Below are positions 26,692 through 61,073 of a DNA stretch of 64,000 bases, in pieces; position 1 is the first letter of the stretch; every line of letters starts with the position of its first letter. The stretch covers positions 1-64,000 of the forward strand of contig NZ_QFGA01000003.1 in the NCBI RefSeq assembly GCF_004369205.1, written 5' to 3'. The notes under the pieces were generated by a model. The model made no database searches and was not told where the DNA came from. It saw nothing but the letters and a program-made list of their open reading frames with translations. The position numbers and the translations under genes are program-made. The DNA comes from Pelotomaculum schinkii (GTDB lineage Bacteria; Bacillota; Desulfotomaculia; Desulfotomaculales; Pelotomaculaceae).

Positions 26692-27726
26692 ATGAAGCTG
26701 CAGGCGATTAAGGTGGAAGAAGCTGTAGGAAAGGTGCTCAGCCATGATATCACCAAAATTGTGAAAGGGGAATCAAAGGGAGCTCTTTATAAAAAAGGGC
26801 ACATCATAAAGCAAGAAGACGTACCGGAGCTGTTAAAGCTGGGTAAGGAAAACATCTATATCTTAGATCTTGAAAACAGCGATATTCATGAAGATGAAGC
26901 CGGGATCCGTCTGGGAAAAGCTGTCTCCGGTGACTGCGTAACCTGGCAGGGCCCCAAGGAAAGCCGCGTTAATATGTATGCCGCTTCCGGCGGGCTTTTA
27001 AAAATCAATATCCCCGCCCTGGAAGCGATTAACGAACTGCCCGACGTCATTTTATCAACCCTGCCTGACAATACAGTAGTCAAAGAGGGTGAAATGCTGG
27101 CAGGGACCAAGGTAATACCTCTGGTGGTACCGGAAAAAACAGTTTTAACGGCTGAGAACATCTGCCGGCAGGCCGGCTGGGTAATTAAAGTGCTGCCCTT
27201 TCGAAAATTAAAAGTAGGCGCGGTCATTACCGGGAGCGAAGTATATAAAAAGCGCATCCGGGATGGTTTCGGCCCGGTCATTACCGAGAAAGTGGAAGCA
27301 TTCGGTTCAGAAATATTAGGGATAGATTTTGCTCCTGACAACGCAGAAATAATAGCCGCCAAGATCAACAAAATGGCCTCGGACGGGGCGGATATCATCT
27401 TTGTAACGGGGGGCATGTCTGTCGATCCCGACGATGTTACCCCGCATGCCATTCGGCTGGTGGGAGCCAAAGTGGAAAAATACGGCGCCGCCGCGCTGCC
27501 CGGTGCGATGTTTATGCTGGCCTACCTGGGAGATATCCCCGTCATGGGGGTACCGGCCTGCGGCATGTTTTTTAAAGTGACCATCGTAGATTTAATGCTG
27601 CCGCGCCTGTTGGCAGGCGAACGGGTAACCCGCAAGGACATCGTGGCGCTGGCCTGCGGCGGGCTCTGCCGGGCTTGTCCCGAGTGCAGGTATCCCAACT
27701 GCACCTTCGGCAAGGGATCGCACTGA
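26692..27726 (+). CDS. MoeA/MogA-like molybdopterin-binding protein
   Basis: 344 residues. The N-terminal part resembles the MoeA linker region (VEEAVGKVLSHDITKI). Residues about 175-310 are the MogA-type molybdopterin domain with GAVITGSEVYKKRIRDGFGP and FVTGGMSVDPDDVTP. The C-terminus ends in a cysteine cluster (CGGLCRACPECRYPNCTFG) unlike classical MoeA. The start ATG has AAGGGGTGAAA before it. MoeA inserts molybdate into adenylylated molybdopterin. This shorter variant, commonly next to XdhC and molybdenum hydroxylases, is probably a dedicated cofactor-handling protein for them. Confidence 0.88.
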   Translation: MKLQAIKVEEAVGKVLSHDITKIVKGESKGALYKKGHIIKQEDVPELLKLGKENIYILDLENSDIHEDEAGIRLGKAVSGDCVTWQGPKESRVNMYAASGGLLKINIPALEAINELPDVILSTLPDNTVVKEGEMLAGTKVIPLVVPEKTVLTAENICRQAGWVIKVLPFRKLKVGAVITGSEVYKKRIRDGFGPVITEKVEAFGSEILGIDFAPDNAEIIAAKINKMASDGADIIFVTGGMSVDPDDVTPHAIRLVGAKVEKYGAAALPGAMFMLAYLGDIPVMGVPACGMFFKVTIVDLMLPRLLAGERVTRKDIVALACGGLCRACPECRYPNCTFGKGSH

Positions 27727-27791
27727 CCTGAAATAACTTTTTGCACGATAATTCTAAGATAAAGCCACTCTTGCTACCCCGCTAAATGCAG

Positions 27792-27809
27792 GTGCGAATT
27801 TATTCGCAC
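27792..27809. promoter_or_regulatory. Perfect 18-bp palindrome, site 1
   Basis: GTGCGAAT TT ATTCGCAC, two perfect 8-base arms. The same outer GTGCGA...TCGCAC half-sites recur exactly 60 bases later. Probably a paired operator for a dimeric regulator controlling xdhC and yqeB. Confidence 0.6.
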
Positions 27810-27851
27810 AAATGTTACATTAAACCACACAAGTCCGGCGCTAACCGCCGG

Positions 27852-27869
27852 GTGCGATTAAAATCGCAC
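27852..27869. promoter_or_regulatory. Perfect 18-bp palindrome, site 2
   Basis: GTGCGATT AA AATCGCAC, two perfect 8-base arms. The centre is 60 bases from site 1, about six helical turns, placing both sites on one DNA face. A GC-rich hairpin (CCGGCG, five bases, CGCCGG) lies between them. Confidence 0.6.
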
Positions 27870-27961
27870 TCACATCGTTTAGTTTTCATCTTCTTCTGGC
27901 GTCGTGAGAGCGGCATGCATTTCTAAAATAAAAATAAACCTGGGGAGGGGGTAATTTAATA

Positions 27962-29104
27962 ATGGAAATAAACCTGCAGCAGGGGATAGCCGTTGTAACC
28001 GTCATAGGCAAGGAAAACCTTCCCGGCAGCCTCCTGGGGCGAAAGGGAATATTCAAATATACAGGTGAAGGAACAAAAGGAGACCTGGGGTTACCATGGC
28101 TGGAAGAACAAGTGGCGGAAATACTTCAAAATAACCAGTCCAACGGGATGTTTAAGCTGGCCACCCTGTCCAATCCGGCCAAACCGGAACAAAGCGCAAC
28201 AGTTATGATCGACCCCTACCTGCCGCCGCATGAACTGATAATCTTAGGCGGCGGGCATATAGCCGTCCCTTTGGTAACTATCGGAAAAATATTGGGTTAC
28301 CAGGTAACAGTAGTTGATGACCGGCATGACTTTGCTCACAAAGAGCGCTTTCCCGAAGCCGACAGAGTAATTTGCTGCGATTTTAGCGATATAGAAAAGC
28401 GCCTGGCCTTCGGACCTGGAAGCAGTGTGGTAATCATCACCAGGGGCCACCAGCACGACCAGGAGTGCCTGCGCCGGTTGATAAAATATCCTCTTGCTTA
28501 CCTGGGCATGATCGGCAGCAGAAGAAAGATTAACATCGTAAGGCAGCAGTTGCTCGAAGAAGGTATAGACGCCGAAAAACTGGAGCAGGTGCACATGCCG
28601 GTAGGTTTGGACGTAGGGGCGCAGACACCCGGAGAGGTGGCCGTAAGTATTGCCGCGGAATTACTCAGGGAGTGCCGGGGAGGAAGCGCCCATTCCTTAA
28701 AAGACCACAGCCCCAAAAGGGTCGCCGTCGTGGGCGACGTGGAAATGCTCTCTGCTGTGGACAGGGAAGTATTACAAAAAACGCTTACGGGAGATGAAAC
28801 ACCTGCTGCGGTCGCCACAATAGTAAAAACACGGGGCTCTACCCCACGCAAGGCAGGCGCCAGAATGCTGGTATACGCTGACGGTCGGATACTGGGAACA
28901 ATTGGCGGAGGTTGCGGGGAATCGGAAGTCCGGCTGGCCGCCCTGGGTGTTATTGACGAAAATTTGCCGCGAATTTATCAAGTGTCCCTGAGCGCAGACA
29001 CAGCAGCGGTAGAAGGTATGGTCTGCGGCGGCGCGATGGAAGTGTATATTGAACCGGTAGAAGCATATAAAAAGGTTTTCTATGGGGGTGAAAGCAATGA
29101 TTAA
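27962..29104 (+). CDS. xdhC: XdhC/CoxI-family maturation factor, domains in swapped order
   Basis: 380 residues. XdhC binds the molybdenum cofactor of xanthine-dehydrogenase-type enzymes and assists its sulfuration or selenation. Here the Rossmann domain comes first (LIILGGGHIAVPL near residue 93, VVDDRHDFAHKERFPEA, MIGSRRK). The XdhC/CoxI domain comes last (VKTRGSTPRKAGARMLV near 287, GTIGGGCGESEVR near 314, GMVCGGAMEVYIEP). The usual order is the reverse. The N-terminal 85 residues are extra. The start ATG follows GGGGAGGGGG. The end overlaps the start of yqeB by eight bases. It is probably controlled through the paired palindromes upstream. Confidence 0.88.
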   Translation: MEINLQQGIAVVTVIGKENLPGSLLGRKGIFKYTGEGTKGDLGLPWLEEQVAEILQNNQSNGMFKLATLSNPAKPEQSATVMIDPYLPPHELIILGGGHIAVPLVTIGKILGYQVTVVDDRHDFAHKERFPEADRVICCDFSDIEKRLAFGPGSSVVIITRGHQHDQECLRRLIKYPLAYLGMIGSRRKINIVRQQLLEEGIDAEKLEQVHMPVGLDVGAQTPGEVAVSIAAELLRECRGGSAHSLKDHSPKRVAVVGDVEMLSAVDREVLQKTLTGDETPAAVATIVKTRGSTPRKAGARMLVYADGRILGTIGGGCGESEVRLAALGVIDENLPRIYQVSLSADTAAVEGMVCGGAMEVYIEPVEAYKKVFYGGESND

Positions 29105-29936
29105 AAATAAACCACTGGTAGTAATAAGAGGAGCCGGCGACCTCGCCTCAGGAGTAGCTTACCGTCTATATAACAGCGGTCTGGACGTGATCATGACCGA
29201 AATAGAACGCCCGCTGGTAGTTAGAAGGACAGTGTCGTTTGCCGAGGCGGTATACGCGGGCAGGGTTACCATAGAAGGAATAGACGCCTGCCTGGCCGGT
29301 TCGGTGGAAGAAGCCCTGTCTTTGTTGGAAAAAAGGATCATCCCGGTGCTGGTAGACCCCGAAGCAGTCGTAGTAAAGCTAGCTCGTCCCGCAGTGGTAG
29401 TGGACGCGATAATGGCAAAGCGTAATCTCAATACCGCTATTGAGGATGCTCCACTGGTCATCGGCCTGGGGCCGGGCTTTACAGCCGGCGTTGATGTTCA
29501 CGCGGTTATTGAAACCTGCAGGGGACACCGCCTGGGGCGGGTTATCTACAGCGGCAGCGCTATTCCAGATACAGGCTCTCCGGGCGCTGTTGACGGCTAT
29601 ACCCTGGAGAGGCTGTTGCGGGCGCCGGTGGACGGGGTTGTGACGCCGCGCCGGAATATTGGGGAGCAGGTGGAAAAGGGTGATGTAGTAGCTATGGTGG
29701 AGATAACTCCGGTATATGCAAAATTGACTGGATTGCTCAGGGGCATGCTCAAGGAAGGCACCCGGGTACCCAAGGGGACCAAGATCGGTGACATAGACCC
29801 TCGTAAAAACGCTGAATATGACACCATCTCCGATAAAGCGTTGGCTGTTGGCGGTGGGGTTTTGGAAGCGGTATATTATTATCTTAGCAGTAACGAGTTA
29901 ACACATTGGAATTTCACAAAGGAACATGATTTGTGA
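29097..29936 (+). CDS. yqeB: YqeB-type selenium-dependent molybdenum hydroxylase accessory protein
   Basis: 279 residues from the ATG at 29097, with GGGGGTGAAA before it. An ATG at 29082 is also in frame. It begins with a nucleotide-binding glycine loop (VVIRGAGDLASGVAYRLYNSG) and shows VLVDPEAVVVKLARPAVVVDAIMAKRN-type and LGPGFTAGVDVHAVIET signatures. This is the family named for selenium-dependent molybdenum hydroxylases (YqeB/EF2563 type). Members occur in genomes that use selenium as a labile cofactor. Coupled to xdhC, it points to a selenium ligand in the hydroxylase encoded upstream. The biochemical activity of the family is not established. Confidence 0.87.
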   Translation: MIKNKPLVVIRGAGDLASGVAYRLYNSGLDVIMTEIERPLVVRRTVSFAEAVYAGRVTIEGIDACLAGSVEEALSLLEKRIIPVLVDPEAVVVKLARPAVVVDAIMAKRNLNTAIEDAPLVIGLGPGFTAGVDVHAVIETCRGHRLGRVIYSGSAIPDTGSPGAVDGYTLERLLRAPVDGVVTPRRNIGEQVEKGDVVAMVEITPVYAKLTGLLRGMLKEGTRVPKGTKIGDIDPRKNAEYDTISDKALAVGGGVLEAVYYYLSSNELTHWNFTKEHDL

Positions 29937-49843: not shown

Positions 49844-52054
49844 ATGATTGAGAAAGATTTTGACATCCCATTTATTTCTGATTTAGCCCTTTATGAAAAA
49901 CAAATCCAACAGAATTATCGCCCAATTATTGCAGTACATAAATGGTTTGCCAGACGCCCCGGCACCTTATTCCGGGGGCTTTTGTTGTCTGAGTTTGTTG
50001 AAGGTGCTTTAAAGGATAATTTTTATAAGGCACACACCTTAAAAGGTATTAAAATAGCTGATCCGTTTATGGGTGGGGGGACACCGCTAATTGAAGCCAA
50101 TCGGCTTGGGTGCGATATTACCGGCTACGATATTAATCCAATGGCGTATTGGATCGTTCGCCAGGAGATTGAACATCTTGACCTTGAGTCATATCGTAAG
50201 GCGGCAGTTGATCTTCAACAACGACTGGAAAATGAAGTTGGCTCCTTTTATAGAACTATTTGCATGGAGTGCGGTTCTCCAAATGCTCATGTCAAGTATT
50301 TCATCTGGGTAAAAACACTAAAATGTGATGAGTGCGGGAGCATTTATGATTTGTTGCCTGGGTTTTTGCTTGCAGGGAATCAGCGCCATCCAAAAAATGT
50401 GATCATTTGTTCTGCTTGCGGGGAATTGAATGAGGTGGAGGATAGGAAACAACCTGGTTTTTGTCATGCTTGTGGTGTGGTATTAAAAATTAACGGGCCG
50501 GCCACTCGCAACCGTTGCGAGTGCCCTCATTGTGGGAAAATAAATATCTACCCTAAGCCTTTAGATGGCGCTCCTCAACATCGTATGATAGCAATAGAGT
50601 ATCACTGTCCTTTATGTAAGCCCAACCATCAGGGCAGGTTCTTCAAAAAACCGGACCGGGAAGATCTAGAGAAATATGAGATAGCTTCTGAAACTTGGAG
50701 ACGATTAAACCCTAGCTTTGTTCCTGACGATGAGATCCCGCCTGGTGATGAAACCGACCGCCTTCTAAGATGGGGTTACCGGAGATACCGTGAGATGTTT
50801 AATGAGCGGCAGTTGTTAGGTTTGGAATTAAGCTGCCAGGCTATTTCTGGACATTCTGAGGAAAAGATTCGAAATGCATTAGCAACAAATCTTTCTGATC
50901 TGCTTCGCTACCAGAACATGCTCTGCCGTTACGATTCTATGGCACTGAAATCACTTGATATATTTTCAATACATGGCTTTCCAGTTGGACTGATGCAGTG
51001 TGAGTCCAATCTGCTCGGTATCCCGAACGGTGAAAAAGGATCAAACATTGGAAGCGGTGGTTGGTCTAATATTATTCTTAAGTATGATCATGCTAAAGCC
51101 TACTGTGCTAATCCCTTTGAAATTCGGCATCAAGGCGGGAGAAAAGTTCAAGTAGCGATCAGAGGAGAATGGATTGGAGAACACCGTAACACTTCCATGT
51201 CACCGGAAGATAGAAATGTTGCGCTTCATTGCTGCAGTTCAACCTTCATTGATTTACCCCCCGAGTCTCTTGATGCTGTAATAACCGATCCACCTTATTT
51301 TGCCAATGTACAATATGCTGAATTGATGGACTTTTGTTATGTATGGCTGCGCCGGTTAGCTATAGATACTAGTGGAGTATTTAATAAATCTTCCACAAGG
51401 GACATAGAAGAATTAACCGGCAATATTACGATGGAACGGGGACTTTCACATTTCACCGAAGGAATGGCAGCCATTTTTGCAAAAGTGGCGTGTTCGTTAA
51501 AAGAGGGGGCACCTTTAGTCTTTACCTACCATCACAATAAAATTGAAGCATATTTACCTGTTGCAGTTGCAATCCTTGATGCTGGACTGACTTGTTCTGC
51601 CTCAATCCCCTGTCCGGCAGAGATGGGTGCTTCTATTCACATTAACGGGACAGGTTCATCAATAATTGATACGGTTTTTGTCTGCCGCTCAACTGGTACA
51701 GTCCCACGGCGTACCATAGTATCCAAGTCCCAAGAAATAGCTGAATTGGTTAGGGAAGATTTGGAGCTTATTCTAAAAGGTAACGTCAAGTTAACGCATG
51801 GTGATATACGCTGCATAGCTTACGGTCATCTTATCCGTTTAGCTGTTTGGAACTTACGCAAGAATTGGGATATAGATGTGTCAGCATCAGAGAAGATGAA
51901 GGTGGTGGCACAGGCTATAAATAAACTCGGGGGTTGGCCTTCTATTGAAAGATTTTTGTCAGATGTCTTGGCAAACGCTCCCTGTTATCAAAGTTTAATA
52001 GCTCATGAAAAACAAGAATCTTATGGAGGAGAAGAAGATGAAATATCCTTTTGA
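49844..52054 (+). CDS. DNA methyltransferase with zinc-ribbon insert (DUF1156-like)
   Basis: 736 residues. The N-terminus has KWFARRPGTLFRG, the W-x-ARRP pattern seen in DUF1156 methylases. Motif I is DPFMGGGTPLIEANRLG (Asp73 on) and motif IV is ITDPPYFANVQY (Asp482). The order motif I, long insert, motif IV is alpha-class-like. Between them are CxxC pairs (CMECG, CDECG, CSACG, CHACG, CPHCG, CPLC), several zinc ribbons that may be the target-recognition region. DPPY predicts N6-adenine or N4-cytosine methylation. Start ATG after GAGGG. Its end overlaps the next gene by 17 bases. Confidence 0.85.
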   Translation: MIEKDFDIPFISDLALYEKQIQQNYRPIIAVHKWFARRPGTLFRGLLLSEFVEGALKDNFYKAHTLKGIKIADPFMGGGTPLIEANRLGCDITGYDINPMAYWIVRQEIEHLDLESYRKAAVDLQQRLENEVGSFYRTICMECGSPNAHVKYFIWVKTLKCDECGSIYDLLPGFLLAGNQRHPKNVIICSACGELNEVEDRKQPGFCHACGVVLKINGPATRNRCECPHCGKINIYPKPLDGAPQHRMIAIEYHCPLCKPNHQGRFFKKPDREDLEKYEIASETWRRLNPSFVPDDEIPPGDETDRLLRWGYRRYREMFNERQLLGLELSCQAISGHSEEKIRNALATNLSDLLRYQNMLCRYDSMALKSLDIFSIHGFPVGLMQCESNLLGIPNGEKGSNIGSGGWSNIILKYDHAKAYCANPFEIRHQGGRKVQVAIRGEWIGEHRNTSMSPEDRNVALHCCSSTFIDLPPESLDAVITDPPYFANVQYAELMDFCYVWLRRLAIDTSGVFNKSSTRDIEELTGNITMERGLSHFTEGMAAIFAKVACSLKEGAPLVFTYHHNKIEAYLPVAVAILDAGLTCSASIPCPAEMGASIHINGTGSSIIDTVFVCRSTGTVPRRTIVSKSQEIAELVREDLELILKGNVKLTHGDIRCIAYGHLIRLAVWNLRKNWDIDVSASEKMKVVAQAINKLGGWPSIERFLSDVLANAPCYQSLIAHEKQESYGGEEDEISF

Positions 52055-53063
52055 AGTGCCGTTCACCTTTATTGAAGCCAATCCAGATGTATACATTTCC
52101 GCTGTCTTCTCCTGCCTTGAATCAGAGTTCCTGGTACTGCCTAAAGGCAATGGGTTTATCGACTATACTGTATTTGAGACAGGTTATGAAGTATTAAAGC
52201 GGGTAACAAACGGGTTCCAAAATATCGAGCCGGTCCCTATAACAAGGGCTGCTTTTCAAAATCCGATGATTATTATCGTATTAAGGGCAATGCTTGGATT
52301 TACTCCCCCGGAATGGGCTTATGTAACTACACAACGTACAGGTATCGAAATAAATCAGGGTTTCGTTCGAACTTTAGACAGAAATATTCGCATGGCGCCT
52401 TTGACACCCTTAGGTAGCGGTCTCATTAAAAAAGAACGAGTGGAAGCTTTAATAGAAACTGCTTGCCAGTTACTTAACTCGCCGGTTCCGGAAGTTGAAT
52501 CGGATAAAATTCATAGATTAGATAAGGCAGATACAAGCGCTGGCCCATCTGCTATAAGAACGATGTCAAGTATGGGGGTACCTTATGCCATGCTTTTATA
52601 TGAACGATTCTTGGGGCGACCTTTTGCCGGACACAGGGACTCAGTTTCCGAATTGATTGGCGATAGTCTTGAATCGGCCATTGAAGAGGTATTAACCAAG
52701 GCCGGTGTTAGTTACAGGAAAACAAAGAGGGCGGAACGGATTGCAGGATTTGACCAGGCCCCGGATTTTATAATACCGAGTGAATTTAATCCTCAGGTAG
52801 TTATCGAGGCTAAGATTACTGAAGATGACGGTACGGCGCGTGATAAAGTTACTCGTGTGCAACATCTTGCCTCTATTAGTTTAGCAGGAAATCCAAGAAC
52901 CCCTAAGTTTGAAGTTATTGCTTGTATCGGTGGGCGTGGGTTCGGTGTCCGTCGTGAGGATATGAAAAAGTTATTGATTGCTACAAGAGGTAAGGTTTTT
53001 ACACTAAAAACACTGGACGCCCTTGTGGAATTTACAAGGTTGAGCGAATTTAAAACAAAATAA
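52038..53063 (+). CDS. PD-(D/E)XK restriction-endonuclease-like protein
   Basis: 341 residues from the ATG at 52038, preceded by GGAGGAG; an earlier in-frame ATG at 52005 would overlap more of the methylase. The C-terminal third holds APDFIIPSEFNPQVVIEAKI: Asp, then Glu-x-Lys, the metal-binding and catalytic triad of the PD-(D/E)XK fold. DSVSELIGDSLESAIEEVL before it is the usual helix with the conserved Glu. Helical N-terminal part. The two genes, overlapping and AT-rich, look like a restriction-modification pair. I do not recognise a characterised type. Whether it cuts modified or unmodified DNA is open. Confidence 0.78.
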   Translation: MKYPFEVPFTFIEANPDVYISAVFSCLESEFLVLPKGNGFIDYTVFETGYEVLKRVTNGFQNIEPVPITRAAFQNPMIIIVLRAMLGFTPPEWAYVTTQRTGIEINQGFVRTLDRNIRMAPLTPLGSGLIKKERVEALIETACQLLNSPVPEVESDKIHRLDKADTSAGPSAIRTMSSMGVPYAMLLYERFLGRPFAGHRDSVSELIGDSLESAIEEVLTKAGVSYRKTKRAERIAGFDQAPDFIIPSEFNPQVVIEAKITEDDGTARDKVTRVQHLASISLAGNPRTPKFEVIACIGGRGFGVRREDMKKLLIATRGKVFTLKTLDALVEFTRLSEFKTK

Positions 53064-53399: not shown

Positions 53400-54239
53400 A
53401 TGGGAAAAGACGAGCTTCGCCAATTGCTGGATGATGTAAAGAATAATAAGGTTGAAGTGGGAGAGGCTTTAAACATTCTTAAAGACCTACCTTATGAAGA
53501 CCTGGGATTTGCCATGTTAGACCACCATCGTGCTCTGCGCAAGGGCTTTCCTGAAGTTGTTTTCTGCCAGGGCAAGACCGTGGACCAGGTCGCGCGGATT
53601 TTTGATGCCCTCTGTGGGGGGCGCCGGAGCATCCTGGGTACCCGCGCCACCAAAGAAGCTTTTGAAGCGGTGCAGGGAGTTTATCCTGACGCCGTCTATC
53701 ATGAACTGTCGCGTACCATCGTCGTACACCGCGGCGAGCCCCCGGTAAAGAAAGGCAACATCCTGCTCATGAGCGCCGGAACAGCTGATATTCCAGTGGC
53801 CGAAGAGGCTGCCGTTACCGCTGAAATAATGGGCAACCACGTGGAGCGCGCTTATGATGTCGGCGTTGCCGGTATTCACAGGCTCCTCGATAAACTGGAC
53901 TTGATCCGCTGGGCAGATGTAATCATAGTTGTCGCGGGTATGGAGGGCGCCCTGGCCAGCGTGGTGGGTGGGCTGGCTGACCAGCCCATTATTGCAGTGC
54001 CAACCAGTGTTGGGTATGGAGCCAGCTTTAACGGGCTTGCCGCGCTTTTATGTATGCTTAACAGTTGCGCCACTGGTGTGTCCGTGGTAAATATTGATAA
54101 CGGTTTTGGCGCAGCCGCTATGGCCAATGCCATTACCCGGATGATTGAACAAAAAGTTGGCGCGGCCCTCATGGAGGTTGAGGAAAGTAATTCCCCATCC
54201 GGTACCGGGCTGCGTGACATAAAGAGGGCGAACGTATGA
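53400..54239 (+). CDS. larB: LarB, pyridinium-3,5-biscarboxylate synthase
   Basis: 279 residues, a PurE-related carboxylase: GTRATKEAFEAVQGVYPDAVYHE, then the NCAIR-mutase-like core (LLMSAGTADIPVAEEAAVTAEIMGNHVERAYDVGVAGIHRL in pieces, AGMEGALASVVGGLADQP, VPTSVGYGASFNGLAALLCML). LarB carboxylates and hydrolyses nicotinic-acid-adenine-dinucleotide to start the nickel-pincer (NPN) cofactor of LarA-type racemases. The stop overlaps the larC start. ATG after AAGGGA. No larA or larE is in view. Confidence 0.93.
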   Translation: MGKDELRQLLDDVKNNKVEVGEALNILKDLPYEDLGFAMLDHHRALRKGFPEVVFCQGKTVDQVARIFDALCGGRRSILGTRATKEAFEAVQGVYPDAVYHELSRTIVVHRGEPPVKKGNILLMSAGTADIPVAEEAAVTAEIMGNHVERAYDVGVAGIHRLLDKLDLIRWADVIIVVAGMEGALASVVGGLADQPIIAVPTSVGYGASFNGLAALLCMLNSCATGVSVVNIDNGFGAAAMANAITRMIEQKVGAALMEVEESNSPSGTGLRDIKRANV

Positions 54240-55033
54240 AGATAGCCTATTTTGACTGTTTCTCAGGGATTAGCGGGGATATGTGCCTGGGCGCCTTAAT
54301 CAGCGCCGGGGTTGATTTTGATATTTTAAAAGAGGAGTTAACCAAGCTTTCTGTGCAGGGATATGTCCTGCGTTGTGAAAAGGTCAGGCGCAGTGGTATA
54401 ACAGCGGCTAATATCTTTGTGGATATGCTGGATGAGCCACAGCCGGAAAGGCGTCTTGCAGACATCAAGCAGGTTATCGACAATAGCGAACTGCCTGAAA
54501 GGGTAAAGGGAAAAAGTAAAGCCGTCTTTGACCGCCTGGCTATAGCGGAGGCGACTGTGCACGATACCGCGCCGGAGCAAGTCCAATTCCATGAAGTAGG
54601 CGCCGTAGACGCTATTGTGGATGTTGTAGGTACGGTGCTTGGTCTTAGCTTGCTTGGGGTGCAGCGGGTATATGCTTCACCACTGCCCATGGGCAAAGGT
54701 TTTATCAGATGCATGCACGGGATAATCCCCTCACCAGCCCCTGCAACCCTTGAAATTTTGCATGACGTCCCTATATATGGGGCAGGTATTGAAGGCGAAC
54801 TGGTCACTCCAACCGGGGCCGCCCTCATTTCCACCCTGGCGGAAGCTTTTATTGATATGCCGGCGCTTGTAGTGAAAAAGGTGGGCTATGGGTCCGGCAA
54901 AAAAGTGATGGAGCGCCCAAATATATTGAGGTTGATTGTTGGTGATAAACATGACCAGCAGCATCATCACCCTCATGAACACAAGCATGGTGAGAGCAGC
55001 CACCCGCACCAGCACGGGCATTTACACACGTAG
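54236..55033 (+). CDS. larC: LarC-like nickel insertase, N-terminal domain only
   Basis: 265 residues. It matches the N-terminal domain of LarC (AYFDCFSGISGDMCLGALISAG, VQFHEVGAVDAIVDVVGT, ASPLPMGKGFIRCMHGIIPSPAPATLEIL in pieces, GELVTPTGAALI). LarC inserts nickel into the pincer. The usual C-terminal domain (about 130-150 residues) is absent. The frame ends in a histidine-rich tail (HQQHHHPHEHKHGESSHPHQ), a plausible nickel store, and no frame following the stop matches LarC2. In some bacteria larC is two frames joined by ribosomal frameshift; none is visible here. Probably a larC1-only form. Confidence 0.82.
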   Translation: MKIAYFDCFSGISGDMCLGALISAGVDFDILKEELTKLSVQGYVLRCEKVRRSGITAANIFVDMLDEPQPERRLADIKQVIDNSELPERVKGKSKAVFDRLAIAEATVHDTAPEQVQFHEVGAVDAIVDVVGTVLGLSLLGVQRVYASPLPMGKGFIRCMHGIIPSPAPATLEILHDVPIYGAGIEGELVTPTGAALISTLAEAFIDMPALVVKKVGYGSGKKVMERPNILRLIVGDKHDQQHHHPHEHKHGESSHPHQHGHLHT

Positions 55034-55216: not shown

Positions 55217-55420
55217 ATGGAACTCAGTGCTCGTAACAATCTAAAGGGCCGCATCAAGGACATTAAAACAAATGAAATTAATGCCGAAGTGCTCCTTGAT
55301 ATAGGCGGACAGGAAATGTGTTCAACAATTACAGCTGGTTCAGTGAAAAGGATGAACTTAAAGGTTGGTGACGAAGTAAGCGCGCTAGTCAAAGCAAGTT
55401 CTGTAGTAATTGGTAAATAG
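55217..55420 (+). CDS. mop: Molybdopterin-type oxyanion-binding protein (molbindin, Mop)
   Basis: 67 residues, a single TOBE/Mop domain: SARNNLKGRIKDIKTNEINAEV, then ITAGSVKRMNLKVGDEVSALVKASSVVIGK. It binds molybdate or tungstate as a hexamer and acts as an intracellular store or carrier. ATG after AGGAGGG at six bases. It stands apart with a terminator on each side. Its free-standing domain may compensate for the TOBE-less ModC at 60402. Confidence 0.94.
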   Translation: MELSARNNLKGRIKDIKTNEINAEVLLDIGGQEMCSTITAGSVKRMNLKVGDEVSALVKASSVVIGK

Positions 55421-55621: not shown

Positions 55622-57190
55622 TCATAGCGGCAATTTTAGGCTTGTAGTGGACTTCATATTTAATTCCTGTGTCAAATGGTCAATTTCATGTTTCACTGAG
55701 CGAAATTTGTGTAAAAGCTCCTGTGCGAGTGGCGTTAGTCTGGTTCCTTCGCCTACCTGTGTGTGGATCAGCAGGATTCTCCAGCTGTCTTCCACCGTCT
55801 TAATTTTACCCAGGGCCGAGCGATAGGATATCCCCAATTCCCTTGCAGTCTGGACCATCGAGCCGGAGAAGTCAATGTGCGTCAATATAGTATAAAGGAC
55901 TTCATCGAAAACTACCCCATTTTTTTCCAGACAAAGCTTACTGCCGGTTTTGGAACCAGAGTTTGCTTTGTTGGATAAATCCTGTAAACGGGTATACTTG
56001 TGTTCAGCTGGACGGCTTGCCGCCTTTGTGTTGTCTGGTAACGCAGTATTGGGTTTAATTGAGTCTATCAGCTTAATAGTATCTATTGGGCGGCCTATTT
56101 TTGTTTCAACTTTCTTTTTGATCAACTCAGCTTGCTTCAGTTTGCGAAGTATGGCACGGCGGGTCTTCCTGTCGCGGCCGTGCTTTTTGAGTAGTGTAGT
56201 AAAATATTCGCTGATGGAAATAATTTGCTGGTTCATCACCATTTTGTCCGCTAGAAAAATCACGTCTGATTCTGAAAGCGGTTTGCTTTTAGAAACCTCT
56301 TTGCTCAAATTGACAGCAGAAATCTCAGCGACCTGGGGATAACTCATGTCTGCAAGAAGCAGCGAATTAGCCAGGGCGCGCTCCTTATGACAGTGGACAA
56401 CATCATGCAGCAAGGCTCCGGCAAGAACTGTATCAACATCCAGAAATGCGCCTGCTTTATTCAAATGATTAGTCAATGCCAGAGCAAGACCTGCTACTAG
56501 ATAGCAATGTGCCTGAAAATACGGATTGACTCTAATTGTTTGTAAAATTTGACAACATGAATCAAAGGTGATAGCTGCTCGATTGTTCAGGTGGTTCAAA
56601 AGGAAACGGCGATCTTCCTGTGTGTTCATGTCCAGCCGAACGGCTACGTCCGTAACCTCCACATCTACAGCATCATGTTCCAAATTTTTTAATAGTCCCT
56701 TTAAACCATCAGGGTAAGAAGTATTCACGATCGTATTTATGTACTTAGCTGAAATAAGTTTCGGGTGTCCCCGCAGGCTATTTATAGCTGGATATATAAT
56801 GCCCGGTTTACCTGCTGAGTGGTAACGGGCAAGTATTTTATTCACTGTGGAAGCACGGACGAGGGGGTTATCCGCAGGCAGGATAAAGAAAGCCCGTACC
56901 TCCGCTTCCAGAGTCTTAACTCCTTCCTGCACCGAGGAGTACATACCCTCATTGAAATGGTTATTAATAATTATCCTGACGTCGTAGTTTTTTAACGCGT
57001 CTATAACTTCAAGCGCCCGGTAGCCTACCACTACCCTTACATCGGAGATCCCGGCCTGAAAAAAACACCGTACGGCATGTTCGACAGCAGTAAAATCTCC
57101 GAGTTTTAATAAAGGTTTGAATTCCCTCATCTGAAAAGAATAACCTGCAGCGAGTATTATGGCTGCAATTCCGTCAGCATCACAAATCAC
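55622..57190 (-). CDS. Three-domain fusion: MocA-like nucleotidyltransferase, HD domain, ModE-like HTH
   Basis: 522 residues. Residues 1-190 are a MobA/MocA-type nucleotidyltransferase (IAAIILAAGYSFQMREFKPLL, ILPADNPLVRASTV, RGHPKLIS), expected to transfer CMP or GMP to molybdopterin. In the signature the usual R-M-G is Q-M-R, so activity needs checking. Residues about 210-330 are an HD domain (LLHDVVH, His262-Asp263). Residues about 425-505 form the ModE winged helix (IDFSGSMVQTARELGISYRSALGKI). There is no molybdate-binding TOBE. It may couple cofactor synthesis to transcription of Mo genes. CATAACATAACATAACG lies before its start. Confidence 0.8.
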   Translation of the reverse strand: MICDADGIAAIILAAGYSFQMREFKPLLKLGDFTAVEHAVRCFFQAGISDVRVVVGYRALEVIDALKNYDVRIIINNHFNEGMYSSVQEGVKTLEAEVRAFFILPADNPLVRASTVNKILARYHSAGKPGIIYPAINSLRGHPKLISAKYINTIVNTSYPDGLKGLLKNLEHDAVDVEVTDVAVRLDMNTQEDRRFLLNHLNNRAAITFDSCCQILQTIRVNPYFQAHCYLVAGLALALTNHLNKAGAFLDVDTVLAGALLHDVVHCHKERALANSLLLADMSYPQVAEISAVNLSKEVSKSKPLSESDVIFLADKMVMNQQIISISEYFTTLLKKHGRDRKTRRAILRKLKQAELIKKKVETKIGRPIDTIKLIDSIKPNTALPDNTKAASRPAEHKYTRLQDLSNKANSGSKTGSKLCLEKNGVVFDEVLYTILTHIDFSGSMVQTARELGISYRSALGKIKTVEDSWRILLIHTQVGEGTRLTPLAQELLHKFRSVKHEIDHLTQELNMKSTTSLKLPL

Positions 57191-57243
57191 GGCTATTTCG
57201 CCACCTTATATTTAAAACAATGGACAGTTCTAATGGAAAAGAC

Positions 57244-57260
57244 ACATAACATAACATAAC
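57244..57260. promoter_or_regulatory. Direct repeat upstream of the fusion gene
   Basis: CATAACATAACATAACG, three tandem ATAAC units. On the minus strand this reads CGTTATG three times in part, similar to ModE half-sites (CGTTAT...). Possible autoregulatory site; weak. Confidence 0.35.
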
Positions 57261-57419
57261 GCTAAATGACGTGATATAAATATAATAAGATATAATTTGG
57301 TTGCTGTCAATCTACTCGGTAAGCTGTGCGATGAATATAAGTTATAGGTGATTTTTTTATGCGTGAAATAGCCAGGACATTGTGTATTTTGTCAAATCGA
57401 CCAGACTTTACAGTCAATA

Positions 57420-57446
57420 AAAAAGACCGGTCAACCGGCCTTTAAG
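57420..57446 (-). terminator. Terminator of the HTH-binding-protein gene
   Basis: AAAGGCCGGT with ACCGGTCTTT (minus strand), followed by TTTTATT. It lies just after the stop of the gene at 57469. Confidence 0.6.
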
Positions 57447-57468: not shown

Positions 57469-58431
57469 TTATACTTCAGCTACAATTTTGCCTGTTTCGG
57501 TCACATCATAATCCCCCAGTCCCAGGAGTTCTTTTTTGAACTCATGGGACTGTATTATTTCAAGTACAGCTTGGAACTGGGGCTTGTCCGCATCTTCTTT
57601 CTTCATCACCAGTTCATAGCGTTCTTTTTGCAAGGGCACAAAATCGATCCCGCGAGCTTGCAGGGACACCTTTTCGATGCCCAGGCCCACATCGGCTTCC
57701 CCCCGTGCGACAGCGCTCGCCACGGTAAGGTGGGATAACTCTTCTGTTTCATAGCCGTTAATTTGGCTGCTGTCCAATCCCAGGAGCCGGAACTGCTCGT
57801 TTAATAGGACCCGGGTGCCGCTGCCCTTTTCCCGGTTTATGAAACGTATTCCTGGACGGGTTAAATCTTGCCAGCTCTTGATCCCTTTGGGATTGCCCTT
57901 GGCCACATAAAATCCCTGCATCCGGCAGGCTAAATGTACTATTAACGTTGGAATACCGGGAAGCAGGCGGCGGACGTAGGGGATATTGTACAGATCCCTT
58001 TCCCCGGCCCAAAGATGGACTGCGGTCATGTGGACCTTTCCCTGGTAAAGAGCCAAAAGGCCGTTAAAGCTTCCCACATGGTGTCTGAGAGCGCCGACTC
58101 CATTTGGATGCCGCTCCAGGTGGCGGGCCAAAATGTCAAGAAGGACGTCCTGGCCGCAGATTACGATTCTTTGCAGATTAGAGGACGGTTCCTCAATATC
58201 CGGCGCTGTTGCAGGAAGTGAACGGGCAGCGGCGGAGTATGGCGCCGCCGTTGACTCCAGCTTTTTCCCCAGGTTTTTATAGGCTTCAACATCTTTCTGA
58301 TCAACCCGAATCTTACGGCCAACACGGTAAGCCGCCAATTCTCCCCGTTTTATCAATTCATATACTGTATTCTTGGCAATTTTTAGTGTGCTTGCTACTT
58401 CTTCGGGAGTTAAAGAAGAATCTTCTTTCAC
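57469..58431 (-). CDS. HTH regulator with periplasmic-binding-protein-like sensor
   Basis: 320 residues. Residues about 5-55 are an excisionase/MerR-like HTH (SLTPEEVASTLKIAKNTVYELIKRGELAAYRVGRKIRV in pieces). Residues about 90-315 are a molybdate/tungstate-type substrate-binding domain (IVICGQDVLLDILARHLERH, GVGALRHHVGSFNGLLAL, INREKGSGTRVLLNEQF, ARGEADVGLGIEKV). There is no signal peptide, so the binding domain is inside the cell. It probably senses molybdate, tungstate or a related ligand and controls the divergent modABC operon and itself. ATG with AGGAATACC-type weak site. Confidence 0.87.
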   Translation of the reverse strand: MKEDSSLTPEEVASTLKIAKNTVYELIKRGELAAYRVGRKIRVDQKDVEAYKNLGKKLESTAAPYSAAARSLPATAPDIEEPSSNLQRIVICGQDVLLDILARHLERHPNGVGALRHHVGSFNGLLALYQGKVHMTAVHLWAGERDLYNIPYVRRLLPGIPTLIVHLACRMQGFYVAKGNPKGIKSWQDLTRPGIRFINREKGSGTRVLLNEQFRLLGLDSSQINGYETEELSHLTVASAVARGEADVGLGIEKVSLQARGIDFVPLQKERYELVMKKEDADKPQFQAVLEIIQSHEFKKELLGLGDYDVTETGKIVAEV

Positions 58432-58928: not shown

Positions 58929-59702
58929 ATGAAAAAAATATTAATTTTTTTAGCGCTCATGTTATTTGTTGTAGCAGCTGTTACGGGGTGCGGCGGAGAA
59001 AAAGAACAACCGAAAACTGAATTAAACGTTTCGGCGGCTGCCAGCCTGACGGATGCTGCGGGAGAATTAAAGACAATCTATGAAAAACAACATTCAGATG
59101 TGACTATTACTTATAATCTAGCCGCCTCCGGCACCTTGCAAAAGCAGATTGAGGAGGGCGCCCCGGCAGATTTATTTATATCCGCAGGCAAGTCCCAAAT
59201 GGATGCCCTGGCCCAAAAAGGCCTGATTGTGGATGCTTCCCGTAAAGACCTGCTGGGGAACGAACTGGTACTGATAGCCGGGAAAGACAGCAAGCTTACA
59301 GAGTTTAACGGAATGACCGACGCGAGCGTTGAAAAGATCAGTATCGGTACACCTGAAACGGTACCTGCCGGCAAGTATGCAAAAGATACTTTAACTGCTC
59401 TTAAGCTCTGGGAGCAGCTTGAACCCAAAATGGTTCTTGCAAAGGATGTGCGCCAGGTCCTTACCTATGTGGAAACCGGCAATGTGGATGCAGGGCTGGT
59501 TTACCGCACCGATGCAGCAACCAGCAACAACGTTAAAATTGTAGCCGCTGCTCCTGCCGGCTCCAGTGCGCCTGTAGTTTATCCCATGGCGGTAATCAAA
59601 AGCACCAAGCACCAGAAAGAGGCCGAGGCATTTGCAGCATTTCTGACGAGTGACGACGCAGTTAAGGTTTTCGAAAAATATGGATTCAAAGTCCTCAAGT
59701 AG
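58929..59702 (+). CDS. modA: Molybdate-binding lipoprotein ModA
   Basis: 257 residues. A lipoprotein signal with lipobox VTGC (MKKILIFLALMLFVVAAVTG), then ELNVSAAASLTDAAGELKTIYE, YNLAASGTLQKQIEEGAPADLF, VGTP-like KISIGTPETVPAGKYAKDTL, and DVRQVLTYVETGNVDAGLVYRTDA, all ModA signatures. It captures molybdate (or tungstate) outside the membrane for ModB and ModC. ATG after AGGAGAGAAGAAG. First gene of an operon; six bases separate it from modB. Confidence 0.95.
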   Translation: MKKILIFLALMLFVVAAVTGCGGEKEQPKTELNVSAAASLTDAAGELKTIYEKQHSDVTITYNLAASGTLQKQIEEGAPADLFISAGKSQMDALAQKGLIVDASRKDLLGNELVLIAGKDSKLTEFNGMTDASVEKISIGTPETVPAGKYAKDTLTALKLWEQLEPKMVLAKDVRQVLTYVETGNVDAGLVYRTDAATSNNVKIVAAAPAGSSAPVVYPMAVIKSTKHQKEAEAFAAFLTSDDAVKVFEKYGFKVLK

Positions 59703-59708
59703 TAATTT

Positions 59709-60383
59709 ATGATGTTCTTGCAGCAAATCGACTGGCACCCGGTAATTCTTTCTATTCGGGTGGCAATAATCGCAACGATTGTCGTTACATGTCTTGGATT
59801 GCCTCTAACCCGGTTGCTGGCTCGCAGAGAGTTTTATGGCAAGGATGTACTAGAGGCGGCGATAACGCTGCCCCTGGTGCTGCCGCCATCAGTCGTTGGC
59901 TACGGCTTGTTGCTGCTAATCGGCAAAAACGGCCTGTTGGGCAAAGCTCTGGCTGATGTGGGCATTACTTTCGTATTTACCTGGTGGGCGGCCGTCCTTG
60001 CTTCCACCGCGGTGGCTTTCCCGCTGATGTACCAGAGCGCCAAAGCAGCTTTTATGAGCGTGGACGTTAACTTTGAGAAAGTGGCCAGGACCCTGGGTGC
60101 AAGTGAACTGAGAATATTTTTTACGATTACGCTCCCACTGGCCTGGCCGGGTATTCTTGCGGGCCTGGTGCTGACCTTTGCCCGCGCCCTGGGTGAATTC
60201 GGCGCCACTTTGATGGTTGCCGGCAACATACCGGGCCAGACCCAGACTATTCCAACAGCCATATATTTTGCAGTGGAATCGGGAAATAATGTCATGGCCA
60301 GAACTCTGGTCGGAATCATTACTATATTCAGCTTTCTTGTTATATTCTGGGTAAATCGCTGGGCTAAAAAGCAGAATTATTAA
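59709..60383 (+). CDS. modB: Molybdate ABC permease ModB
   Basis: 224 residues, five to six membrane segments. LPLVLPPSVVGYGLLLLIG and the EAA loop (KVARTLGASELRIFFTITLPLAWPGILAG in pieces, ARALGEFGATLMVAGNIPGQTQTIPTAIY) identify ModB. No strong ribosome site, but it follows modA by six bases and is likely coupled. It forms the membrane channel with ModC. Confidence 0.95.
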   Translation: MMFLQQIDWHPVILSIRVAIIATIVVTCLGLPLTRLLARREFYGKDVLEAAITLPLVLPPSVVGYGLLLLIGKNGLLGKALADVGITFVFTWWAAVLASTAVAFPLMYQSAKAAFMSVDVNFEKVARTLGASELRIFFTITLPLAWPGILAGLVLTFARALGEFGATLMVAGNIPGQTQTIPTAIYFAVESGNNVMARTLVGIITIFSFLVIFWVNRWAKKQNY

Positions 60384-60401
60384 GGTATTAAAGGTGATTA
60401 T

Positions 60402-61073
60402 ATGTTAGAAGCCAGCCTGACCAAAAAATTGTGGCATTTTACCCTGGATGTGCAATTGAAAGTTGACAACCAAATTCTTATTCTTCTGGGACCTTCCGGT
60501 TCGGGAAAGACCACCATTTTACACCTGTTGGCAGGTCTTTCGAAACCAAATGAGGGGCTCATCAAAATAAATGATCGGGTCTTATATTCCTCGGAAGAAA
60601 AGCTTAATATCTCTCCGCAATCCAGGAACGTTGGCTACCTGTTCCAGGACTACGCCCTCTTCCCCCATATGACTGTCAGACACAATGTTTTTTATGGCCT
60701 GAAAAGCAAAAATTGCAAGCAGGACAGAGCAGCTATGGACCCGGTGGAACTTTTAAATTCCTTTGGCGTCGGGCATCTTATCGACCGGTATCCCAGCCAG
60801 CTTTCCGGTGGGGAGAAGCAGCGGGTTGCTCTGGCCAGGGCTCTGGTCGTCCGTCCCCAACTACTGTTGCTTGACGAGCCGTTCAGCGCCCTGGATAAGA
60901 ATACCAGGATAAGTCTCAGGCATGAAGTGAAAAAACTGCACAGCCATTGGCAGATACCGTTTATTTTGGTTACGCATGACGAAGAAGACGCACAATTCTT
61001 AGGGGATATAACTGTATCCCTAGAAAAAGGGAAGTCCATGGACAGTTCGCTGAATGCGGTATCGTGTAATTAA
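60402..61073 (+). CDS. modC: Molybdate ABC ATPase ModC, short form
   Basis: 223 residues: Walker A GPSGSGKTT, Q-loop YLFQDYALFPHMTV, signature LSGGEKQRVALARAL, Walker B LLLDEPFSALD, switch VTHDEEDA. ModC normally has about 350 residues with a C-terminal TOBE (Mop-like) domain that binds molybdate and inhibits the transporter. Here it ends after the ATPase domain. The free Mop at 55217 may take over some of that function. The first ABC transporter of the tandem pair ends here. Confidence 0.93.
   Translation: MLEASLTKKLWHFTLDVQLKVDNQILILLGPSGSGKTTILHLLAGLSKPNEGLIKINDRVLYSSEEKLNISPQSRNVGYLFQDYALFPHMTVRHNVFYGLKSKNCKQDRAAMDPVELLNSFGVGHLIDRYPSQLSGGEKQRVALARALVVRPQLLLLDEPFSALDKNTRISLRHEVKKLHSHWQIPFILVTHDEEDAQFLGDITVSLEKGKSMDSSLNAVSCN

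Follow-up and report, generated by a model that had tools for sequence, protein, structure and literature searches.

The 64,000-nucleotide stretch of Pelotomaculum schinkii DNA analysed here (the window; GCF_004369205.1, contig NZ_QFGA01000003.1, positions 1-64,000 of the forward strand) encodes a 522-residue protein in which a MocA-like nucleotidyltransferase domain, an HD domain and a ModE-type winged helix are joined in this order. The best-supported reading, to which we assign a probability of about 0.55, is that this fusion is a regulator of molybdenum and tungsten homeostasis built from a retired cofactor enzyme. The gene is a single complete frame, as originally described, and a possible ribosome-binding site (AAGGTGG, 57201-57207) was found by sequence inspection. 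The features of the locus are collected in Table 1.

Table 1. Features of the fusion gene and its surroundings, in window coordinates.
Feature	Position	Strand	Basis
larB and larC (nickel pincer cofactor genes)	53400..55033	+	NCBIfam LarB and LarC, over cutoff
67-aa Mop-like TOBE protein (mop)	55217..55420	+	Pfam TOBE, E 3.3e-16
Fusion gene, complete, 522 aa, GTG start	55622..57190	-	ORF list; three-domain homologue in L034
ModE-type winged helix, residues about 413-508	55667..55954	-	TIGR00637; model match 1b9m
Shortened glycine-rich wing, 4 residues fewer than in stand-alone homologues	55745..55756	-	Alignment; both fusion copies
Linker, residues 373-412, low pLDDT, conserved between two species	55955..56074	-	dN/dS 0.206
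HD domain, residues 201-372	56075..56590	-	Pfam HD over cutoff; family alignment
Asn294 (family His, 35/36)	56309..56311	-	Family alignment
Arg271 (family His, 36/36)	56378..56380	-	Family alignment
MocA-like nucleotidyltransferase domain, residues 1-200	56591..57190	-	Pfam NTP_transf_3; TIGR03310 below cutoff; fold
Gln20 codon, replacing the signature Arg of LAAGxSxRM	57131..57133	-	Alignment with 56 relatives
Candidate operator, tandem GTTATGTTATGTTATG, just downstream of the promoter-like site	57245..57260	-	Repeat of ATGTTATG near mod genes
Promoter-like site of the fusion gene, TTGACA-N17-TATTAT	57282..57310	-	11/12 consensus positions
Terminator-like hairpin between upstream regulator gene and fusion gene	57422..57443	-	Sequence
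Excisionase-type HTH joined to PBP-like (molybdate-type) domain	57469..58431	-	Pfam HTH_17 and PBP_like
modABC-type transporter, then a second ABC set to 63913	58929..61073	+	Pfam SBP_bac_11; kept beside relatives' mod-locus mocA

The three domains named in the original prediction were recovered in agreement by profile searches and AlphaFold models. The MobA-like NTP transferase profile of Pfam covers residues 10-170 (E 1.2e-26), and structurally this part resembles Rv0371c, IspD and GlmU (Z scores of about 21-24). The Pfam HD profile covers residues 227-271 (E 3.5e-6; 27.7 bits, cutoff 22); the HD assignment is based on this match, the family alignment and the predicted helices, the PDB match list of the model being filled by the MocA domain. 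The ModE_repress profile TIGR00637 aligns with residues 431-511 (E 3.7e-11), its 42.9 bits lying below the curated cutoff of 98.5. In the full-length model, pLDDT is about 90 or more for most of residues 1-380 and under 50 across residues 385-445. A model of the C-terminal part reaches about 96 in the winged-helix core and has E. coli ModE (1b9m) as its best PDB match; the single-domain ModE-like protein 2ijl was also matched. Compared with ModE, the winged helix of the fusion stands behind MocA and HD domains, its wing is shortened and the Mop/TOBE half is missing. This absence of the molybdate-binding part had been predicted as well: neither Pfam nor NCBIfam gives a TOBE/Mop match in the fusion protein, and the chain stops about 14 residues past the winged helix.

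The first two domains follow a known arrangement. NCBIfam NF045665, the DVU_1551 family of NTP transferases, matches residues 8-365, that is, MocA and HD together, with 347.7 bits (cutoff 315), so the MocA-HD pairing, initially taken to be unusual, is already known and the ModE extension is what is new. The equivalog profile for CTP:molybdopterin cytidylyltransferase (MocA, TIGR03310) is not reached (117.3, cutoff 186.45), but a DVU_1551 member with an intact signature also scores just 118.4, and the shortfall by itself is therefore not decisive. DVU_1551 proteins have the same domain order as the fusion. They differ in that the winged helix is missing, the R-M-G signature and both dinuclear histidines are intact, and the gene belongs to an aldehyde-oxidoreductase maturation operon, whereas the fusion lies at a larBC-mop-mod locus. 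In relatives, this operon also encodes a dicluster protein, the DVU_1556 methyltransferase, the DVU_1555 C-GCAxxG-C-C protein, the radical-SAM protein TrsS, the DVU_1553 ligase and XdhC_rel_AOR, often together with an alpha-ribazole-type histidine phosphatase.

In a maximum-likelihood tree of 58 MocA domains, the two known fusion copies form a clade (support 100/99) with four MocA proteins that stand alone (G047, G058, G071 and G079), and the clade is nested within the DVU_1551 MocA-HD proteins. All four stand-alone genes are located at a molybdate-transport locus, and in two cases (G071 and G079) a homologue of the window's HTH-PBP regulator is their neighbour. The nesting of the clade and the location of its stand-alone members at the mod locus make a duplication of a DVU_1551-type gene to this locus the most likely history. 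The HD domain is present in the fusion and missing in the four stand-alone proteins.

The nucleotidyltransferase site of the fusion is partly eroded. Its signature, LAAGYSFQMREFK, reads Gln20-Met21-Arg22 where Arg-Met-Gly is expected, as had been noticed from the sequence. The signature Arg is present in 54 of the 56 aligned relatives, ordinary MocA included, and both fusion copies carry Gln. The two exceptions are mod-locus paralogues, with Gln (L040) and Pro (L012); the other two of the four mod-locus paralogues retain the Arg, and its loss is thus no rule of the clade. The fusion and all four mod-locus proteins share LDMN (Asn189) where most others have LDMD, and GHPK (Lys144) is unique to the fusion, GHPP being found elsewhere in the alignment. 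The core residues Lys25, metal-binding Asp107, Gly141-His142-Pro143 of the RGHP motif and Asp187 are kept. Since Asp107, Lys25 and the RGHP motif persist here and the H...HD...D set persists in the HD domain, residual catalysis is possible in either domain.

The retained residues bring up the leading alternative, a bifunctional enzyme-regulator of the NadR/BirA type, in which the MocA domain, and perhaps the HD domain, would still be catalytic and provide MCD for an aldehyde oxidoreductase or a molybdenum hydroxylase, and regulation would fall to the winged helix. NadR is the textbook precedent for tying a cofactor nucleotidyltransferase to transcription; in NadR and BirA, a cofactor nucleotidyltransferase or ligase is joined to a DNA-binding domain and cofactor status sets transcription. 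This precedent, together with MocA-ModE fusions without HD in other Bacillota, tells against the suggestion that such a coupling of cofactor nucleotide chemistry to transcription was uncharacterised. The kept K25, D107, G141-H142-P143, D187 and H/HD/D residues and the score over the NF045665 cutoff accord with a working enzyme, as does the genomic setting. On C1 lies a DVU_1551-type operon (L164 1-11769) with genes for AOR, dicluster protein, CGA, MTase, TrsS and AMP ligase; neither MocA-HD nor XdhC_rel was found near it, and an active fusion could serve it. A second DVU_1551-type aldehyde-oxidoreductase copy on C3 (L165 6474-14000, about 502-510 kb) is decaying: its TrsS is broken, its AMP ligase is truncated, and what is left of its MocA runs into a fragment of XdhC. 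The C1 operon being without a MocA-HD gene and the C3 MocA being a fragment, the fusion is the last MocA-HD protein in the genome. Nevertheless, the signature Gln, Lys144 in GHPP, Asn189 and the loss of both dinuclear histidines are common to both species, a separate canonical MocA is encoded at C2:1081801, and the fusion gene is placed at mod, not at AOR. Full bifunctionality is therefore unlikely, even as the strongest competitor of the regulator reading. NadR and BirA further differ from the fusion in handling NAD or biotin, in their active enzyme domains and in belonging to unrelated domain families; the fusion is most likely analogous to them in logic, but with eroded enzyme sites.

The HD domain shows a similar mixture of kept and lost residues. 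The mononuclear set H...HD...D is intact (H228, H262, D263 and D315), and Arg271 and Asn294 replace two family histidines in both fusion copies. According to a review (PMC8177086), the six residues H...HD...H...H...D are diagnostic of a dinuclear HD site; the fusion domain does not contain this motif. The description of the domain as intact, with LLHDVVH, accordingly holds for the HD core motif and not for positions 271 and 294. A main output through this domain, as a hydrolase of a nucleotide signal (Ap4A-like or other) tuned by the MocA or winged-helix domain, is quite improbable. The kept residues form the mononuclear motif of several phosphatases, and the core is shared with YqeK-type HD phosphohydrolases, but the fusion has lost the two second-metal histidines, and alanine at such a histidine strongly reduces Ap4A cleavage by S. 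pyogenes YqeK (PMC11857287). By this comparison, the substitutions would impair the fusion protein. The stand-alone mod-locus paralogues are also without HD, which argues that the domain is dispensable in that clade.

The fusion is maintained as one unit. Pelotomaculum sp. UBA10960 (L034), a congener with an independent assembly, contains the same three-domain frame, 90% identical, next to the same larC-larB neighbours. Between the two copies, dN/dS is 0.186 overall, with 0.18 in MocA, 0.16 in HD and 0.28 in the winged helix; the adjoining larC gives 0.17 in the same two species (dS about 0.24). The fusion frame and its linker are thus under purifying selection between the two species. A chance fusion, whose winged helix and enzyme parts drift without joint function, has a correspondingly low probability: conserved residues are gone in all three domains and the fusion is confined to one genus, but every domain and the linker show ratios comparable to that of LarC, and the larBC neighbours are kept in both species. 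A sequencing or assembly error joining separate genes, a possibility raised beforehand, is practically negligible, as no support for it was found, the joins are identical in both assemblies, the linker is under selection (dN/dS 0.21), the N-run of the UBA10960 copy lies near residue 62 within the MocA part rather than at a domain join, and no in-frame start codon occurs at residues 357-435. The missing internal start also means that a separately made winged helix is not obvious.

The winged helix appears to have a recognizable source. A stand-alone ModE winged helix occurs in nearly all relatives, most being 38-48% identical to the fused one, usually in the gene order MoaD-like protein, winged helix, TupB-like permease and MoaA, and often near larBC. 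In the window genome, MoaA comes directly after MoaD, with neither winged helix nor TupB between them, and both fusion genomes are without a stand-alone winged helix of the relatives' type, having just a more distant paralogue. The moaD-moaA gap of the window genome contains a 16-nt exact match to the winged-helix gene of a relative. The protein-level score of this putative remnant was reached by 82 of 1000 shuffles and is not significant, for which reason the match is suggestive of a winged-helix remnant only. A search for the junction in two congeners, run without a positive control, returned no match. Both fused copies have FDEV for FGxG and AL for AW in the alignment; with these family residues and part of the wing lost, DNA binding by the winged helix could be weakened.

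The gene neighbourhood points to molybdenum uptake. The fusion gene is located between larBC-mop, on its downstream side, and the HTH-PBP regulator and modABC, on its upstream side. The core ATGTTATG of the tandem element recurs upstream of modA in the window (58830); in L074, L081, L088, L089 and L034 it precedes modA, mocA, the PBP regulator gene or the fusion gene. These elements are a candidate operator, which could belong to the neighbouring HTH-PBP regulator. The latter is conserved next to modABC in relatives and is itself a candidate molybdate regulator, the second at this locus. E. coli-type ModE boxes were rejected, the window containing one match with 3 mismatches, inside a gene and at chance level. 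An Rfam search of 52-64 kb gave no match. Elsewhere in the window and beyond it, MoCF-domain and XdhC-type proteins occur as repeated copies that are 84-89% identical (window 26692-29936, L084 760-3817 and L086 10972-13370); two of the three sets also include a YqeB-type protein, and one set lies immediately downstream of the mod operon, just beyond the window. A DNA-methylase-like protein and a partner, possibly a restriction-modification pair, are encoded at 49844-53063, between formate-dehydrogenase-type genes and larB.

The three-domain fusion was found only in the window genome and one congener among 113 genomes of the order, and a sample of 398 genomes of the phylum added no further genome. 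Five other genomes of the phylum (L129, L133, L137, L138 and L141) encode simpler MocA-ModE fusions that lack HD. These proteins resemble the three-domain fusion in having a MocA-like domain followed by a ModE winged helix, and differ from it in the missing HD domain and in MocA parts that score far under the NF045665 cutoff. The MocA signature is degenerate in two of the five. These signatures (L141 1636-2574, LIITGGDTDKEK; L133 2178-3395, LAAGSALDPN) are strongly altered, and the two proteins are possible parallel cases of an enzyme turned sensor. The ModE winged helix is also fused to YqeC, by NCBIfam in L121 and L123 and by likeness in L125 and L126, and to TupA-like binding domains in L122 and others among the 398 phylum genomes. 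The YqeC of these fusions is a selenium-cofactor protein. The MocA-ModE carriers are only distantly related, which makes independent fusions probable, and the joining of an enzyme to ModE in Moco maturation probably happened repeatedly. No description of MocA-ModE fusions was found in the open-access literature. A wider proposal, made tentatively and with the odds somewhat against it, is that Bacillota have a class of Moco sensors in which Moco-maturation enzymes (MocA and YqeC) were joined several times independently to a ModE winged helix and some then decayed into ligand sensors; the window protein would be its three-domain member, reading the finished or precursor cofactor and not molybdate.

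The moonlighting regulator of the original prediction thus survives as the most likely reading, in the form of a protein of the molybdenum-uptake locus whose enzyme part seems to have lost full catalytic capacity; the MocA clade, the lost residues, the neighbourhood, the missing stand-alone winged helix and the selection on the linker all argue for it. Most likely, a DVU_1551-type MocA-HD gene was duplicated to the molybdate-uptake locus; the MocA site lost the signature arginine and the HD site both second-metal histidines, and in Pelotomaculum the protein was joined to a ModE-type winged helix that is a separate gene in relatives. The analysis establishes the anatomy of the protein, its descent and the selection on it; for the ligand, the DNA targets and the direction of regulation, we infer the following scheme. 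The ligand of the MocA pocket, which has kept Asp107 and Lys25, may be CTP, molybdopterin or the finished cytosine dinucleotide, bound but not turned over efficiently, and the HD pocket, at most mononuclear now, may act as a second ligand site or as a weak hydrolase. Ligand occupancy would shift the seating of paired winged helices on DNA, with the fusion's own promoter and modABC as presumed targets and the ATGTTATG elements as possible sites.

The fusion bears on the sensing of molybdenum or Moco in bacteria that have no full-length ModE. If the regulator reads the cytosine-dinucleotide branch, molybdate uptake would be coupled to the state of the cofactor pool and not to the oxyanion. If true, the fusion would also show cleanly how an enzyme becomes a regulator, with the intermediate stages all still found in relatives: the intact MocA-HD protein, the mod-locus MocA with and without the signature Arg, and the stand-alone winged helix.
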